From positions 1 through 24,557 of the IMG/VR virus record IMGVR_UViG_3300007512_000190: a DNA stretch of 24,557 bases; one strand, given 5' to 3'. Position numbers and translations under genes: made by a program. Shown here piece by piece: positions 1,451 to 6,646 of this stretch. The stretch's first letter is position 1, and every line of letters begins with the position of its first letter. This stretch comes from a virus. Under the pieces are notes generated by a model. That model did not search any database, was not told the origin of the DNA, and saw nothing but the letters and a program-made list of their open reading frames with translations.

Positions 1451-1861
1451 TTAACGGTATCGTCTGCGAACTGTTCTTTTGCGTAGTTTGCCGCGTTTAT
1501 TATACCGGCGAGTTACTGTTCGCTTTTTTAAGCGAGGCTTGTGGTGACGCTGAACGCGAACTCTCTTATGATAACGGCTCGCTCGAACCCTGTTGTGATA
1601 GCGAACACGCTGACGATGGCGGTGATAAACTCGGTGATAGGCGCGAGTATAGGGATCATACTCCCAGTGATAACGAGTGTTGTTTGGTGTAATCCTACGA
1701 ACTTCGACGTGAACTGGTGCGTGTGAAGTATATACCACATCGTGTGGTTCAATCACCTCGACTGCCGCAAAACAACCAGCGGTCGAAAACATCATACCGC
1801 TTGTTAATACATATAAAATACACATTTTAAAAATGTTCTCCTTTCTATTAACACTATTCAT
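1451..1861 (-). CDS. Small exported protein (possible lipoprotein) with His/Arg-rich basic tail
   Basis: Function not recognised. From the ATG at 1861 the product is 136 aa. It has a short basic N-region (R6, K7, K12), a hydrophobic stretch MCILYVLTSGMMFSTAG, and a Cys that could be a lipidation site, though Thr rather than Leu at -3 makes the lipobox imperfect. About 40 acidic/neutral residues follow (VEVIEPHDVVY). The last 60 or so residues are almost entirely Arg, His, Lys and Tyr, with repeated RVR and YH steps and no acidic residue. A second start at 1825 has a strong AAAGGAG 12 bases away but would leave a signal peptide with no positive N-region, so 1861 (GGAG six bases away, overlapping the previous stop by 8 bases) is preferred. 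Possible roles are membrane or periplasmic action during infection, for example superinfection exclusion; this is only inference. Confidence 0.6.
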   Translation of the reverse strand: MNSVNRKENIFKMCILYVLTSGMMFSTAGCFAAVEVIEPHDVVYTSHAPVHVEVRRITPNNTRYHWEYDPYTRAYHRVYHRHRQRVRYHNRVRASRYHKRVRVQRHHKPRLKKRTVTRRYNKRGKLRKRTVRRRYR

Positions 1862-2360
1862 TTGCAACTCCCGTGCCAAAATTGACAACATTTTTATTAA
1901 ATTTAAAATTACAACCCTGCCACCCTGCACGTCGTGCATTCTCGCTTAAGGGTTTTCTTGGAATAACATTATCTTTTGTAATGTTCTCTTTCAAAACTGT
2001 TCCAACTCTTTTAATTTGTGCTGATCCCTTGTCATATTCGACAAGGATTAGGTTCCATTTCTTTTCCTTTTCGAGAGAGGCAACAGTGGTCGCGTACTCT
2101 GCTCCAATAAAGCCAACGCTTCCGTCGCGCTTCTCGAAAGATTTCTTGTGCGCTTTCGCTTGAAAAAGTTCATCGCAACTAGAACACTGGTGGTCTACAG
2201 ACTTTTCATTTGCTGTAAGCTTTTTTAATTCCCCTTCATTGCAAACTGGACATTCATAGTGTTCAGCAATCCAGAACTCACACGCTTCTCCGTAAATTCT
2301 TGATTCCGTTTTCCAGTGTGAGGGAACTTTCTTAAGAGATTTTTTTAAAGACTTGTTCAT
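1854..2360 (-). CDS. DpnI-family (methyl-directed) endonuclease catalytic domain
   Basis: 168-aa protein that matches, as I recall the sequence, the N-terminal catalytic domain of DpnI, which cuts G(m6A)TC. Visible landmarks: a four-Cys zinc site (C37, C40, C59, C62), a PD-(D/E)xK-type core with D56 and Q67-A-K69, an EYATT block (88-92) corresponding to DpnI's GAYAT, and the diagnostic RKPL...ARRAGWQGCN segment (135-151). DpnI has E-L-K where this has Q-A-K, so one metal ligand is a conservative E-to-Q change. The C-terminal winged-helix domain of DpnI (roughly its last 75 residues) is absent. The ATG at 2360 overlaps the stop of the preceding 59-aa gene (ATGA). No methyltransferase is in the window, as expected for a methyl-dependent enzyme. 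Expected role: cutting Dam-methylated host or rival DNA while sparing unmethylated phage DNA. Family call strong; activity unproven. Confidence 0.85.
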   Translation of the reverse strand: MNKSLKKSLKKVPSHWKTESRIYGEACEFWIAEHYECPVCNEGELKKLTANEKSVDHQCSSCDELFQAKAHKKSFEKRDGSVGFIGAEYATTVASLEKEKKWNLILVEYDKGSAQIKRVGTVLKENITKDNVIPRKPLSENARRAGWQGCNFKFNKNVVNFGTGVANE

Positions 2361-2536
2361 TTTTTTACCTCGCTTATCAATATCAATTGATTTAAATAAT
2401 AGATCCAGGGAGTGTTACTCTTAACACATTGAACGACAACCTCTCCCGTGAATGGAAGAGTTTGAACCACTGTCGCAAGATCTCCCATTTTATCGTCTTG
2501 ATTGTCATTTATTTTAACCAGATCTCCAATTCTCAT
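2357..2536 (-). CDS. Small protein with SH3/KOW-like N-terminus (hypothetical)
   Basis: 59-aa product beginning MRIGDLVKI, an opening common to small phage proteins with a KOW/SH3-like barrel: alternating hydrophobic strands (LATVVQTL, EVVVQCV, WIYYLNQLILIS) separated by turns. The open frame extends upstream into the end of the recombinase gene, with possible starts at 2587 and further. I chose 2536 because the conserved opening lies there and the upstream residues (KKKLLDFLGKKK) look like out-of-frame recA tail. No good Shine-Dalgarno is visible for either start; expression may depend on coupling to the recombinase. It overlaps the DpnI-like gene by ATGA, so the two are probably co-expressed. 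Function unknown. Confidence 0.5.
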   Translation of the reverse strand: MRIGDLVKINDNQDDKMGDLATVVQTLPFTGEVVVQCVKSNTPWIYYLNQLILISEVKK

Positions 2537-2567
2537 ATAGGTAGTATACTTTTTTTTTCCTAAGAAG

Positions 2568-3683
2568 TCAAGAAGTTTTTTCTTCATCAGCGTCATAAAA
2601 GTTTTCAGCATCTCCGGTGCGCTCGTGAAACTTGAGAACAATCTCTTCATCCATTATTTCAAGAATGCGTTGACGAAATTTTTCATTTTTTAATTTTTCC
2701 AACCAGCCGGATGACTGAAACTTTTCTTCTTTACCATCTGCGTAGGTCAGAGTCCACCAAGTTCCAGTCTTGATATGTGGTGAGGACTTGATCGCTTCGA
2801 GCCAAGACTCTTCATCCATAACACCGACCTCTTCACCCCAAAGAATCTTGAAAAAACAATTGCGCCCTTGCGTTCCGAAGCGGCTCTTCTCAAGCTTAAC
2901 TTTAACCTCAGAACCTATCCTATATCCCTTGTCGTCCATAACAAATGAAGCCTTTGCTTTTCGACCAGTCAACCAAACACGCAGAGAATAAGTATAAATT
3001 AGAGCCTTACCTCCGGGTGTAACATACGGAGTTGTCATTGCCTCCGCTGGAGATCGAGTAATATTTGTTTTTAGTTGATTCAAAACCAGCAAAGTTGATT
3101 GCGAGTTAGCGATTGGGACTGTTAGCTTTGACATTCCCTTTGCCAATATTCTTGGCTTGACAGCCATTGAAGACTGGGGGTTGAAATCTCCTTCGATGTC
3201 GGATACCGAGGGTGTCAGTGCGAGGGAGTCCCAGATAAACAACATCCGATTCTCATTGGAGCCGAGCAATTCCTCGATAGTTTCCAGAACAAACTCAACA
3301 GAGGTTGCCTGAACATATAAAACATTGTCGACATTACAGCCTGCTTTTTCTAAAAAACCTGGGTCGATGGCAGATTCAGAGTCAAAATAAATAACATCAA
3401 TGCCCATTTTCTGAGCGTTGGCAGCAACCTGGGCCGCCATATAACTTTTACCTGTTGACTCTAGGCCAGCAATTTCAGTAACTTTGCCGACCGGAATACC
3501 TGCGACCTGTCCTCTGCAAATAATAGAGTCCAACCATCTCGAACCTGTCGGAATCCAATCCTTGACTATTGTCGGACTGCTTTCATTGAGATTGTGAGCA
3601 ACGTTCATCCCGGCCTTCTTATTGACAAGTTTGCGCATGTCAGCGATTGAAAGCTTTCCCGCTTTCTCTTTCTTTGAAACCAT
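2568..3683 (-). CDS. uvsX: UvsX/RecA-like recombinase
   Basis: Strand-exchange ATPase for recombination-dependent replication and repair. With M1 at 3683 (371 aa), Walker A is GLESTGKS (73-80), the catalytic-Glu region is YFDSES (99-104), Walker B is LFIWDS (148-153), and VLNQLKTN (200-207) corresponds to the RecA L2-proximal glutamine segment. The length and the PTGSRWLDSIICRG opening (45-58) fit the T4 UvsX branch better than bacterial RecA. Two adjacent ATGs exist; AAGGAG lies 2 bases before the one at 3686 but 5 before the one at 3683, so 3683 is preferred (difference one residue). The acidic C-terminal tail (DADEEKTS) resembles regulatory tails of RecA proteins. A strong terminator separates it from the upstream SSB gene, so it is read either by read-through or from a promoter I could not identify. 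Confidence 0.95.
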   Translation of the reverse strand: MVSKKEKAGKLSIADMRKLVNKKAGMNVAHNLNESSPTIVKDWIPTGSRWLDSIICRGQVAGIPVGKVTEIAGLESTGKSYMAAQVAANAQKMGIDVIYFDSESAIDPGFLEKAGCNVDNVLYVQATSVEFVLETIEELLGSNENRMLFIWDSLALTPSVSDIEGDFNPQSSMAVKPRILAKGMSKLTVPIANSQSTLLVLNQLKTNITRSPAEAMTTPYVTPGGKALIYTYSLRVWLTGRKAKASFVMDDKGYRIGSEVKVKLEKSRFGTQGRNCFFKILWGEEVGVMDEESWLEAIKSSPHIKTGTWWTLTYADGKEEKFQSSGWLEKLKNEKFRQRILEIMDEEIVLKFHERTGDAENFYDADEEKTS

Positions 3684-3697
3684 CATTTCTCCTTTTT

Positions 3698-3723
3698 AAA
3701 AAATCGGGGGGCCGAAGCCCCCC
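3698..3723 (-). terminator. Rho-independent terminator with UUCG tetraloop between ssb and uvsX
   Basis: On the sense strand a perfect 7-bp stem GGGGGGC/GCCCCCC encloses the very stable TTCG loop (3706-3723) and is followed two bases later by six T residues (3698-3703). It sits 12 bases after the SSB stop and just before the recombinase ribosome-binding site. It would cap the abundant SSB transcript and reduce, rather than abolish, transcription into uvsX and the genes beyond. Confidence 0.92.
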
Positions 3724-3735
3724 TAGAAACACAAT

Positions 3736-4521
3736 TTATGCGTTTGCTGATAAAAGCTCATCAAATGAGGCTTCTACCGAATTGACTTCATCTGAAGTGG
3801 TAGCGGGGTCACCACTGCTTTTGGAGCCGTAGCGGGTCGTTTCAGAAGAAGTTGTACTAGAATCATCTTCATCAAGAAGATACTCATCCAGCATTGTTTG
3901 CACCTCGTCGGCGGTTTTTCGCTCGAAGAGGCCATCAAAATCCGGAATATTATCAAGCATTTCTGCACATTGTGTCGCATCTAAATCCTCGCAAAGTGGG
4001 GAACTTCGGCGGCGGGGAGTCAATTTCGTTTGAGGAAACGATGCTCCTGCGGGCTTTCCATAAGAAAGCACAAGATCGGTACCTTCATCAACATCGGTGA
4101 TGTCACCATACTCAGGGTTTAACACTAAAGCTAGCAAACTCTCGTATGCCATTTTACCGTAACCCCAAATACGAACACCGTCTGCCTCTTCTCCTCGGAC
4201 AAGAACTGGCGAGAAGAAACGTTGTCGAGCAAAGAACTTTTTTGCTTCTTTAATGCTCTCGGGAGTCTTTTCATTGTAAAGTTTTGTTGCAAAGTTACAA
4301 ACGGGACACTCATCTCCAAAGTTACGCTTCGGACAAAGGAATCCTGAATTTGTTCCCACGTTATAGTGGAAGTGGAAATCTTTGAAGGGATCTCCGTCTG
4401 CTGTCGGCACAATTCGAATGGTCTGCTCACCATCTTGAGGGCGCCAGAAATCTTTGTTTCCACCGCCATTATTTTTTAGAGAATCCATTCTCTCTTTCAT
4501 TCTACTCATATCTAAAGCCAT
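3736..4521 (-). CDS. gp32-like single-stranded DNA-binding protein
   Basis: 261 aa. It coats single-stranded DNA at the fork and during strand exchange. The N-terminus (MALDMSRMKERMDSLKN) is a basic segment like the gp32 cooperativity region. A zinc-type cluster follows, H52 with C63, C72 and C75 (CPKRN...DECPVC), with spacing close to gp32's His-Cys-Cys-Cys. The core carries aromatic and basic residues (FFARQRFFSPVLVRG, WGYGKMAYESL) expected in the OB fold. The last 45 residues are acidic and Ser/Thr-rich (DEYLLDEDD... SFDELLSANA), matching the protein-interaction tail of gp32. The start has AGGAG nine bases upstream. It has its own promoter upstream and a strong terminator downstream, consistent with high-level autonomous expression. 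Confidence 0.92.
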   Translation of the reverse strand: MALDMSRMKERMDSLKNNGGGNKDFWRPQDGEQTIRIVPTADGDPFKDFHFHYNVGTNSGFLCPKRNFGDECPVCNFATKLYNEKTPESIKEAKKFFARQRFFSPVLVRGEEADGVRIWGYGKMAYESLLALVLNPEYGDITDVDEGTDLVLSYGKPAGASFPQTKLTPRRRSSPLCEDLDATQCAEMLDNIPDFDGLFERKTADEVQTMLDEYLLDEDDSSTTSSETTRYGSKSSGDPATTSDEVNSVEASFDELLSANA

Positions 4522-4580
4522 TATTTTTTTCTCCTAATTTGTTAAAGTCAAAATAGCCAATATTCTATCTTGCTGTCTTC

Positions 4581-4609
4581 ATTATAGCATATGTCAAATA
4601 AGATTTAAA
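4581..4609 (-). promoter_or_regulatory. Promoter upstream of the SSB gene (extended -10)
   Basis: The sense strand reads TGCTATAAT at 4589-4581: a perfect -10 hexamer with an extended TGn. A weak -35, TTTAAA, lies 17 bases upstream (4604-4609) and overlaps the stop of the preceding gene. The predicted start near 4574 leaves a leader of about 50 bases before the SSB ATG. The match to host sigma70-type promoters suggests early or middle expression. No MotA-type box is evident. Confidence 0.65.
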
Positions 4610-5462
4610 GACTTTTTTCATTTTTCTGAACCATTGAGGCGCGGGAAAAAGAATAGACAAGAGCGTCGTCGTATTGAGTTGAGAATATTCCGAAACTTGT
4701 TTTCATTCCTTCATATTCAATTTTACTCTTTACTTGATCAGTAACCTTGCTTAACAATTTTCCGTCCTCGTCTAGAATCTTATTTGGCATGGCATAATAA
4801 TACCGCACATCACGAATTTTGTCAAGAGGAAAAAACAACTTTTCTTCTCCGCTGTTATAATTAACCAAACCGAGTGTTGTAATCCTGAGAGAGGGAACTC
4901 CTTCGGGGGAGAACGTATCAAGCACAGGGTCTGAATGTGAGAAGACGTTGGTCATGTGAAAGGTTGAAGCGACTGCCTCATTCACCTTGTCATAATATTC
5001 TCTGATTGGGACTTCTCCGATTACCTCAGACATGTATTTGTTTGAGACAAGGATAACCTTCTCGAACTTCCCCGAGCGAGCGTACTCCTGCATAACCCCG
5101 AACATTAAATTATCTTGCTTAATTTTCATCTCGCCCAATAATTGTCGATCAGGTTGAATGTAGAGTATGGTGACCTTGCATTTTTTCTTAACCAGTTGTT
5201 CTAAAACACGCAGTGAAACACCAGATATAATCCCACAAGAGCAAATGAACAGGACATCTTTCTTCTCAACTCCTTTTAAAAAAGTCCGAACTTTAAGTAT
5301 TGGACCATCTTTTTCGTATTGTTCTGGATGTGGGAAAGAAGGCATGTTGAAACATTTTTTTCCTTTCAATCCAACGTCCATTTTAAATATATCATATTGT
5401 GGATATTGTTTAAATTTTTCTGCGATGGCGCAGCCAGCTTTACCGAGTCCAATTACAATCAT
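4605..5462 (-). CDS. Divergent FtsZ/tubulin-like (Rossmann-type) protein
   Basis: 285 aa, not assignable to a named phage gene. It opens MIVIGLGKAGCAIAEKF, a glycine-rich nucleotide-binding turn of the kind that starts FtsZ/tubulin GTPase domains. A hydrophobic strand VLFICSCGIISGVSLRVLE (70-88) sits where the GGGTGSG loop belongs but keeps only two glycines. It is followed by CKVTILYIQPDRQLLGE (95-111), an N-L-x-x-G/V-x-x-E helix (118-126), and VILVSNKYMSEVIGE (136-150), an order like FtsZ's strand, P, helix and IPND strand. Nucleotide hydrolysis is doubtful given the degenerate loop. It overlaps the polymerase stop by ATGA and ends just before the SSB promoter, so it is co-transcribed with the polymerase. 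A generic Rossmann-fold protein is the main alternative. Confidence 0.5.
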   Translation of the reverse strand: MIVIGLGKAGCAIAEKFKQYPQYDIFKMDVGLKGKKCFNMPSFPHPEQYEKDGPILKVRTFLKGVEKKDVLFICSCGIISGVSLRVLEQLVKKKCKVTILYIQPDRQLLGEMKIKQDNLMFGVMQEYARSGKFEKVILVSNKYMSEVIGEVPIREYYDKVNEAVASTFHMTNVFSHSDPVLDTFSPEGVPSLRITTLGLVNYNSGEEKLFFPLDKIRDVRYYYAMPNKILDEDGKLLSKVTDQVKSKIEYEGMKTSFGIFSTQYDDALVYSFSRASMVQKNEKSL

Positions 5463-6646
5463 ATCTTTAACTCTCTCATTTCTCCAAAGTTCTTCCCCGC
5501 TGAGACATTAACAAGGAACTTTCCAAGATCTGTGTCAGCGAATACTCCTTTTAATTTTACCAGATCTCGCATATCTTTTTCAGAAAAATCTAATACAAGA
5601 GAGTCGTGAAGCGAAAACGCAACATAAGAATCTTTACCCTCTAAGTTCTCCCACACCTTAATCATTTGACGTAAAAACAAGTCGGCGGCAGTGGACTGAA
5701 TGATATAGTTGAGAGCGTGGTGTTCTCCTGCTGGAATTATTCTGTTGTACATTGTTGTCACCTGCTTACCATCCCAGTGTTTCTTTAATATCTCGCTTCT
5801 ATCATAGGCTTGATCAGACAGGATGTCTTTTGACTCTGGGTTATATAACCAAGCGAAGATTCTCTTTTTCGCCTCGTCCCTTGTAAGGAGGTTGTTGTAA
5901 ACGTTCTTTATATTCCAGTTATGTATATCTTCTTGAGGTTGGGGTTGCCCTAAAAGAGCAGTCATTACGCGGAGTTCCATTGCGTTAAAGTCGAATTCAA
6001 CAAACCAATCATTGTTCGGTTTAAGGACTTTTCGGTATGTCTTGTCCATTGTTAAAATGGGGAAAGAACCTTTCTGAGAGGAGAGCCTTCCGGTCTTTGT
6101 TCCGAACATATCATATTTGATATATCTTCCCTTATCATTGTACTTTTTGCAGAACTGGTGGGTCCTAACCTCGTGCATCCTACCCCTTAAAGCCAGAACG
6201 TCGACATTTAATTTTTTATATCTGATCTCGGTTAAAACTTTTTTGAGAGAAAACAAAAAATCGTAGTTGCTCGGCTTCTCAAAGTTCAGCAAAACATGTT
6301 CTGTTATTTTATTTTTGACATTACAATAATCAATAAGAAACTTTTTGGGAACCATATCAAAGAAACAATGTTCTTCCAAGTTTAGCTTCGCCTCCTCCAT
6401 TGATCGGTAGTATGCTTTAAGTTTGCCATAGGATCGTTCCCACTCCGGTCTCAAATATTCTGGGCATATTTCGTCGAGAGTTTTGCCTCCGCAGAACAAC
6501 TGTGCATATTCCACGTTGTGAAATTTCTTTAAGAATTCCGCGTAGTTCCAAGTTTTTGTTGGATTTTTTGGGAGTTTTTTTGAAATCTTATTATTATAAT
6601 AAGCTAGAGCGCATTGGTTCTTGTCGTCAAGCGTTTGGAAAATCAT
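5459..6646 (-). CDS. Family A DNA polymerase, polymerase domain only
   Basis: 395-aa replicative polymerase with the thumb/palm/fingers of Pol I but no 3'-5' exonuclease domain. TGRLSS (185-190) precedes motif A (EFDFNAMELRV, 217-227, catalytic D219). Motif B (O-helix) has R256, K260, F264 and Y268 at exact four-residue spacing, with N269 where Pol I has Gly. QSTAADLFLR (317-326) matches QGTAADI, and motif C is SLHDSLV (345-351, catalytic D348). F264 corresponds to Pol I F762. The 175 residues before TGRLSS show no DxE exonuclease motif, and the gene before it is a virion-type unknown, so proofreading must be encoded elsewhere or be absent. The ATG at 6646 has AGGA only one base away, a poor ribosome-binding arrangement. 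It overlaps the next gene by ATGA. Confidence 0.94.
   Translation of the reverse strand: MIFQTLDDKNQCALAYYNNKISKKLPKNPTKTWNYAEFLKKFHNVEYAQLFCGGKTLDEICPEYLRPEWERSYGKLKAYYRSMEEAKLNLEEHCFFDMVPKKFLIDYCNVKNKITEHVLLNFEKPSNYDFLFSLKKVLTEIRYKKLNVDVLALRGRMHEVRTHQFCKKYNDKGRYIKYDMFGTKTGRLSSQKGSFPILTMDKTYRKVLKPNNDWFVEFDFNAMELRVMTALLGQPQPQEDIHNWNIKNVYNNLLTRDEAKKRIFAWLYNPESKDILSDQAYDRSEILKKHWDGKQVTTMYNRIIPAGEHHALNYIIQSTAADLFLRQMIKVWENLEGKDSYVAFSLHDSLVLDFSEKDMRDLVKLKGVFADTDLGKFLVNVSAGKNFGEMRELKI

Follow-up and report, generated by a model that had tools for sequence, protein, structure and literature searches.

R.DpnI of Streptococcus (type IIM/IIE; structures 4kyw and 4esj) consists of a catalytic domain, defined as residues 1–182, and a C-terminal winged helix. 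In this enzyme Asp53 and Glu64 bind metal and Lys66 positions the water, guanines are read by Arg126, Arg135 and Asn48, both methyl groups are held by Leu129, Arg135 and Trp138, the last supported by Gly140, and the inner A:T pairs are hydrogen-bonded directly by Gln18 alone (PMC4117772). The endonuclease domain has its own sequence and methyl specificity (PMC4117772; PMC11347163), and its binding of DNA is severely affected when the winged helix carries mutations. The Dam-replacing proteins (Drg) of Neisseria and other bacterial proteins belong to the same family (PF06044). Enzymes of the BisI family (Eco15I, NhoI) are stand-alone PD-QXK modification-dependent domains, similar in size to the protein described here, and read 5-methylcytosine in GCNGC; Asn or Gln often replaces Asp or Glu and is equally fit for metal, and enzymes with QVK and QIK cut DNA (PMC11347163). 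Among virus-borne nucleases that depend on Gm6ATC, the nearest precedent is HHPV4I (HhiV4I) of the archaeal virus HHPV4 (PMC10101028, PMC11037411), which was proposed to exclude other viruses (PMC10101028). It has the architecture PUA-wH-HNH, with the winged helix as methyl sensor and the HNH domain as nuclease. The protein analysed here is likewise virus-borne, with Gm6ATC dependence predicted, but its PD-(D/Q)XK domain would be its own sensor and no winged helix is present. A text search of the open literature returned no report of a phage-borne DpnI.

The gene was found on an IMG/VR virus fragment (record IMGVR_UViG_3300007512_000190), analysed as one stretch of 24,557 bases (the window). 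Profile searches of the window identified the major capsid protein Gp23, tail sheath, tube, baseplate hub and UvsX, together with a gp32-like SSB, a family A DNA polymerase domain and ThyX, and this set upholds the T4-like origin proposed in an earlier sequence-only reading. No tyrosine integrase was found in 14 related records of the clade, five of which are 185–206 kb or near that length, which is in line with the lytic life that the same reading had assumed. Coordinates are collected in Table 1.

Table 1. Positions of the nuclease gene, its predicted functional codons and neighbouring features in the window
Feature	Position	Strand	Basis or remark
DpnI-like catalytic-domain protein, 168 aa, ATG start	1854–2360	-	PF06044, E 1e-29; PDB R.DpnI chain 4esj, 8.9e-14; model against 4kyw_A
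Codon of predicted catalytic Asp56 (DpnI Asp53)	2193–2195	-	Alignment; role from PMC4117772
Codon of Gln67 (DpnI Glu64, metal ligand)	2160–2162	-	Gln in 6/6 phage proteins
Codon of predicted catalytic Lys69 (DpnI Lys66)	2154–2156	-	Invariant
RKPLSENARRAGWQGCN block, predicted DNA- and methyl-reading loop	1908–1958	-	Alignment; roles from PMC4117772
59-aa upstream partner ORF (MRIGDLVKI...)	2357–2536	-	Conserved in all five lineages
Sigma-70-like promoter match TTGACT-17-TATACT, just 5' of partner ORF	2543–2571	-	Consensus scan only
Sigma-54-type -24/-12 match TTGGCACGGGAGTTGCA	1863–1879	-	Consensus; belongs to next gene
Small signal-peptide-like ORF (MCILYVLTSG...), downstream, outside cassette	1451–1825	-	Same type in L202
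285-aa protein with glycine-rich N-terminal start	4605–5462	-	
Family A DNA polymerase domain	5459–6646	-	

Family, fold and active-site residues

The 168-aa protein belongs to the DpnI catalytic-domain family: it matched PF06044 with 103.9 bits (curated cut-off 26.7) and reached 8.8e-20 with the PADLOC model mREase_II for methyl-directed type II restriction enzymes, and all five related gene-bearing records also scored above the PF06044 cut-off. Pairwise dN/dS between phage genes was 0.05–0.09 where synonymous change was unsaturated, which marks a real, retained gene rather than a chance ORF; the copies are under strong purifying selection. The gene is thus real, conserved and correctly assigned to the DpnI family, as the sequence-only reading had it. 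An AlphaFold2 model built on a 90-sequence alignment (pLDDT 90.9, pTM 0.85) gave 4kyw, in which DNA occupies the catalytic site, as best match by far with Foldseek (4.8e-13); superposition on chain A yielded Z 19.4 and 2.0 Å over 158 residues, model residues 1–167 aligning with chain residues 1–164 at approximately 27% overall identity. The overlay on the DpnI-DNA structure that the reading had called for therefore agrees with its assignment. The second DpnI structure, 4esj, with the site empty and disordered, scored lower (Z 16.5). BisI-family enzymes were the next family by fold (Z 10.6; ≤17% identity over aligned parts), a link by fold match only, no BisI profile being matched in the Pfam search of the protein.

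Residues were compared with those of DpnI by alignment, with the offset of 3 between PDB chain and published numbering verified with W138. The putative zinc cysteines C37, C40, C59 and C62 are present in all phage copies, the putative catalytic core reads D56...Q67-A-K69, and RKPL and ARRAGWQGCN were both found; the four-Cys site, core and RKPL/ARRAGWxGCN block described from sequence were all borne out. In the RKPLSENARRAGWQGCN block R135, L138, R144, W147 and G149 correspond to DpnI R126, L129, R135, W138 and G140; all but R135, which varies in one, are invariant in every phage and bacterial protein compared. DpnI S17, N48, R126, L129, R135, W138 and G140 are kept in 6/6 phage sequences, and Asp53, Lys66 and a core-helix Glu (E28) are invariant. 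The phage protein thus has the catalytic-domain fold, zinc cysteines, active-site Asp and Lys, methyl pocket (L129/R135/W138/G140) and guanine readers (N48 and R126) in common with R.DpnI, and judged by alignment nearly every residue known for reading and cutting methylated GATC is retained.

Two positions differ from R.DpnI. At that of Glu64, Gln was found in 6/6 phage proteins, and in the 97 full-length bacterial homologues sampled Glu occurred in 88 and Gln in nine. These nine fell in one supported clade of 13, which includes four Glu-bearing members and spans Acidobacteriota, Verrucomicrobiota, Nitrospirota and other groups. The replacement of the catalytic Glu, already reported from the sequence, therefore stands, but its interpretation as a sign of inactivity does not: with Gln in 9/97 bacterial members and in active BisI enzymes (QVK, QIK), Gln67 is no argument against activity, and a dead enzyme on this ground was rejected. 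At the position of Gln18, Arg was found in five and Lys in one of the six phage sequences, and Gln in 97/97 sampled bacterial ones; this change may alter affinity or specificity and is the more telling difference.

Two alternatives bear on these residues. A protein that binds m6A-DNA without cutting, with a regulatory or shielding role at methylated sites for instance, would fit the Gln in place of Glu64, the change of one reader (Gln18) and the absence of an activating winged helix. Asp53, Lys66 and E28 are, however, invariant under strong purifying selection, and the Asp and Lys would be unneeded for mere binding; Gln64 is moreover found in bacterial homologues that are otherwise complete, active BisI enzymes have Gln there as well, and we regard such a binder as quite improbable. 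A nuclease of the same fold that has altered methyl reading and acts on a different DNA structure or modification is suggested by the Arg or Lys for Gln18, by a catalytic domain that lacks its C-terminal end, by the deep branch described below (4.2 changes per column) and by the fold relatives of the model, which span PvuII to Hjc resolvases. At approximately 27% identity, every residue that in DpnI directly lines the methyl pocket or reads a guanine is nevertheless kept, and we give this possibility very little weight. An active methyl-dependent nuclease, working by the mechanism of DpnI's catalytic domain, is the likely reading of the conserved residues.

The missing winged helix and the phage branch

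DpnI_C (PF17726) was not matched in the 168-aa protein, while bacterial controls matched at 1.8e-35 and 7.6e-27; the profile search proposed earlier thus returned PF06044 without PF17726. An HMM of bacterial C-termini run in six frames over the window and the related records gave no credible winged helix, the single weak hit (E 0.009) lying in a frame inside another gene of one relative. The absence of the C-terminal winged helix claimed from the sequence is accordingly confirmed, and in a comparison with the two-domain composition of R.DpnI (catalytic domain plus winged helix) the protein failed on the winged helix. A recent loss by frameshift in the window was rejected, as there is no remnant and the domain is absent in all five lineages. 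The protein also ends early: the model spans DpnI residues 1–164, making the catalytic domain approximately 18 residues shorter C-terminally than that of R.DpnI. Since the endonuclease domain of DpnI has a specificity of its own, the winged helix is not required for recognition; since winged-helix mutations impair binding by the catalytic domain, the lone domain may be weak.

For bacterial homologues, a DpnI-wide DNA pattern was run against 84,980 bacterial and archaeal species and gave at least 119 loci, found through the RAGWxGCN motif, with an open frame holding the motif in 119/119 of those listed. A winged helix followed in frame in 113 of these 119 and in another frame in two; three loci ran off the end of the stretch, and one Chitinophagaceae gene was broken by an apparent transposase gene insertion. 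A natural catalytic-domain-only form was not seen intact among the bacterial loci listed, and in the phages absence of the winged helix is the rule.

Four further IMG/VR lineages carry the gene (L003–L006, 74–94% identity), and a shorter record, L002, is a copy of the window phage. Three IMG/VR scans with DpnI-wide patterns returned only the same five contigs; these rely on the RAGWxGCN motif and pass over homologues in which His or Tyr replaces Trp138, as known in Neisseria. INPHARED phages searched with query P0001, and genome contigs searched with the phage-only alignment, gave no match at the threshold used. One INPHARED record from human faeces (MT837571) holds a DpnI-type winged helix cut by the record end, and full-length DpnI in some phage contig is therefore possible.

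In a tree the six phage sequences formed one group (100/100) outside all 98 bacterial sequences, on a branch of approximately 4.2 changes per column; the tree has few columns and no outgroup, and its root position is uncertain. The winged helix may have been lost in the distant past or may never have been part of this protein, and the description as 'reduced' to the catalytic domain is not upheld by a deep phage branch outside all sampled bacterial proteins. With the long phage branch and uncertain root, recent capture from a bacterium is unsupported by the tree, as is an origin from the Gln-bearing bacterial proteins, which fall in another clade.

GATC methylation and the proposed target

Dam-type and other adenine methylases were sought with PF02086, PF05869 and PF01555 (MethyltransfD12, Dam, N6_N4_Mtase), and none was matched in the six gene-bearing records (the window and five fragmentary records), which are fragments of 5–57 kb whose genomes may hold a methylase elsewhere. 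The search for a Dam-type methylase in the same genome, advised in the sequence-only reading, thus came out, within these fragments, in favour of that reading. N6/N4 methylases were found in 8/45 related phage records; methylated relatives or competitors thus exist in the clade, their target sites unassigned to GATC. GATC occurs 85 times in the window (84.3 expected), 457 times against 486 expected in the gene-bearing records together and 2251 against 2538 in relatives without the gene. There is no GATC avoidance, and gene-bearing records are not poorer in the site than relatives without the gene. An enzyme cutting Gm6ATC requires that the phage's own DNA be unmethylated, and in a Dam host a phage with its own nuclease would be expected to lose or protect its sites. 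That GATC is not avoided points to replication without GATC methylation and argues against host DNA as target; a host without GATC methylation is the likeliest setting.

Taken together, an m6A-dependent endonuclease directed against methylated foreign DNA, with the phage DNA unmethylated, is the best explanation of these data, in which we place slightly more belief than doubt. Cutting activity, GATC specificity, a Dam-less host and the target are inferred. A stand-alone DpnI-type PD-(D/Q)XK nuclease of lytic T4-like phages would bind fully N6-methylated GATC, or alternatively the close SATS relatives accepted by DpnI, using the reader of sequence and methylation that lies in the catalytic domain itself, and would cleave at the Asp56/Gln67/Lys69 metal site. 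Replication would proceed without GATC methylation, most likely because the host lacks Dam; the enzyme would then spare phage DNA and attack methylated foreign DNA such as that of co-infecting phages and plasmids. Judged from its conserved residues, the enzyme probably arms the phage against methylated DNA in the cell it infects. If active, it would show that methyl-dependent cutting in nature can be done by a DpnI catalytic domain without a second domain, would add lytic T4-like phages to the one archaeal virus with an m6A-dependent nuclease, and would suggest adenine methylation as a self/non-self mark between competing phages; at 168 aa the protein could be a small m6A-dependent cutting tool.

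The two-gene cassette and its neighbours

R.DpnI is also set apart from the phage enzyme by the latter's phage-borne gene with an overlapping partner. In each of the five lineages with the gene, the 59-aa partner ORF ends in a stop codon that shares bases with the start codon of the nuclease (ATGA), and the two proteins would be translated together. The partner has the conserved pattern MxxGDLVKI...PWIyy...SEVxK and no Pfam or NCBIfam match. The pair also occurs in G005 (IMGVR_UViG_3300030107_008096), despite a different wider neighbourhood there. Comparison of L203, which has the gene, with L202, which lacks it, showed a clean 703-bp block holding just the nuclease and partner ORFs, inserted 5' of a conserved sigma-54-type promoter sequence. 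The last nuclease codons in L203 come from the flank, which explains the differing C-terminal tails. The sigma-54-type match (TTGGCACGGGAGTTGCA in the window) overlaps the 3' end of the nuclease gene and is also found in nuclease-less L202, as is the signal-peptide-like gene, which is therefore not part of the cassette. The sigma-70-like match 5' of the partner would give a leaderless message and may be fortuitous; in this region 12 such matches were found and 6.1 expected.

The nuclease is rare cargo rather than phage core: it was found in 3/80 uvsX relatives within the DNA examined (80 of 397 found in IMG/VR) and in 0/45 further whole records, the five gene-bearing records serving as positive control. 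From uvsX to the 5'-3' exonuclease gene, cargo differs between phages, and in L153 the same slot (2285–4299) holds a ParB-like protein and an N6/N4 DNA methylase (PF01555, 1.3e-35) that is nearest to CcrM, far below the CcrM cut-off.

Lytic T4-like phages commonly break down host DNA. A Dam-methylated host chromosome could accordingly be degraded early for nucleotides while new phage DNA is unmethylated, and thyX, two genes downstream of the nuclease in the window and also there in some relatives, would suit such a role. It is not at that place in L003, L004 and L005, the L004 contig having the exonuclease gene directly; the neighbourhood noted from sequence is thus correct for the window, but the link to nucleotide recycling is weak and thyX was rejected as functional partner. 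Presence in only 3/80 uvsX relatives speaks against a general need, and GATC is not avoided, though a host Dam would methylate phage sites unless blocked. We consider degradation of the host chromosome unlikely; among the proposed roles that against competitors is better supported. A further, speculative reading, to which we give low probability, extends the role against methylated foreign DNA to a deep, phage-only, single-domain DpnI in a two-gene cassette moving between lytic T4-like phages: the 59-aa protein would stand in for the winged helix as activator of the nuclease, or else restrain it, and phages sharing a host would use the nuclease, as an inter-phage methylation weapon, against each other.

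Several minor observations were made on neighbouring sequences. The sigma-54-type sequence (TTGGCAY-N5-TTGCA; 16 matches against 2.8 expected in 878 kb, four inside uvsX) occurs in G003, G004, G005, L155, L158, L159, L170, L202, L204, L205 and L225 and precedes the same kind of small signal-peptide gene across many phages of the clade; no sigma-54 gene was found in 14 records, and host sigma-54 would therefore serve. The family A DNA polymerase domain is encoded as a protein of just 395 aa without an exonuclease domain, and a 5'-3' exonuclease-like gene forms a separate ORF 3' of thyX, apart from the polymerase gene. The 285-aa protein with a glycine-rich start (IGLGKAGCAIAE) had no family match above cut-off and is kept between gp32 and polymerase in relatives. 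In G005 approximately ten ORFs (about 25834–32571) have a common N-terminal leader, MKLLFENWRxxL, followed by acidic residues, after which the sequences diverge; these leaders resemble those that direct internal head proteins of T4-like phages to the capsid. A second leader family, MKLTKxKLKQIIKEEL, starts unrelated short ORFs in tandem arrangement 3' of uvsX in L150, L151, L157, L167 and L197, and at 4554–6018 in G005.
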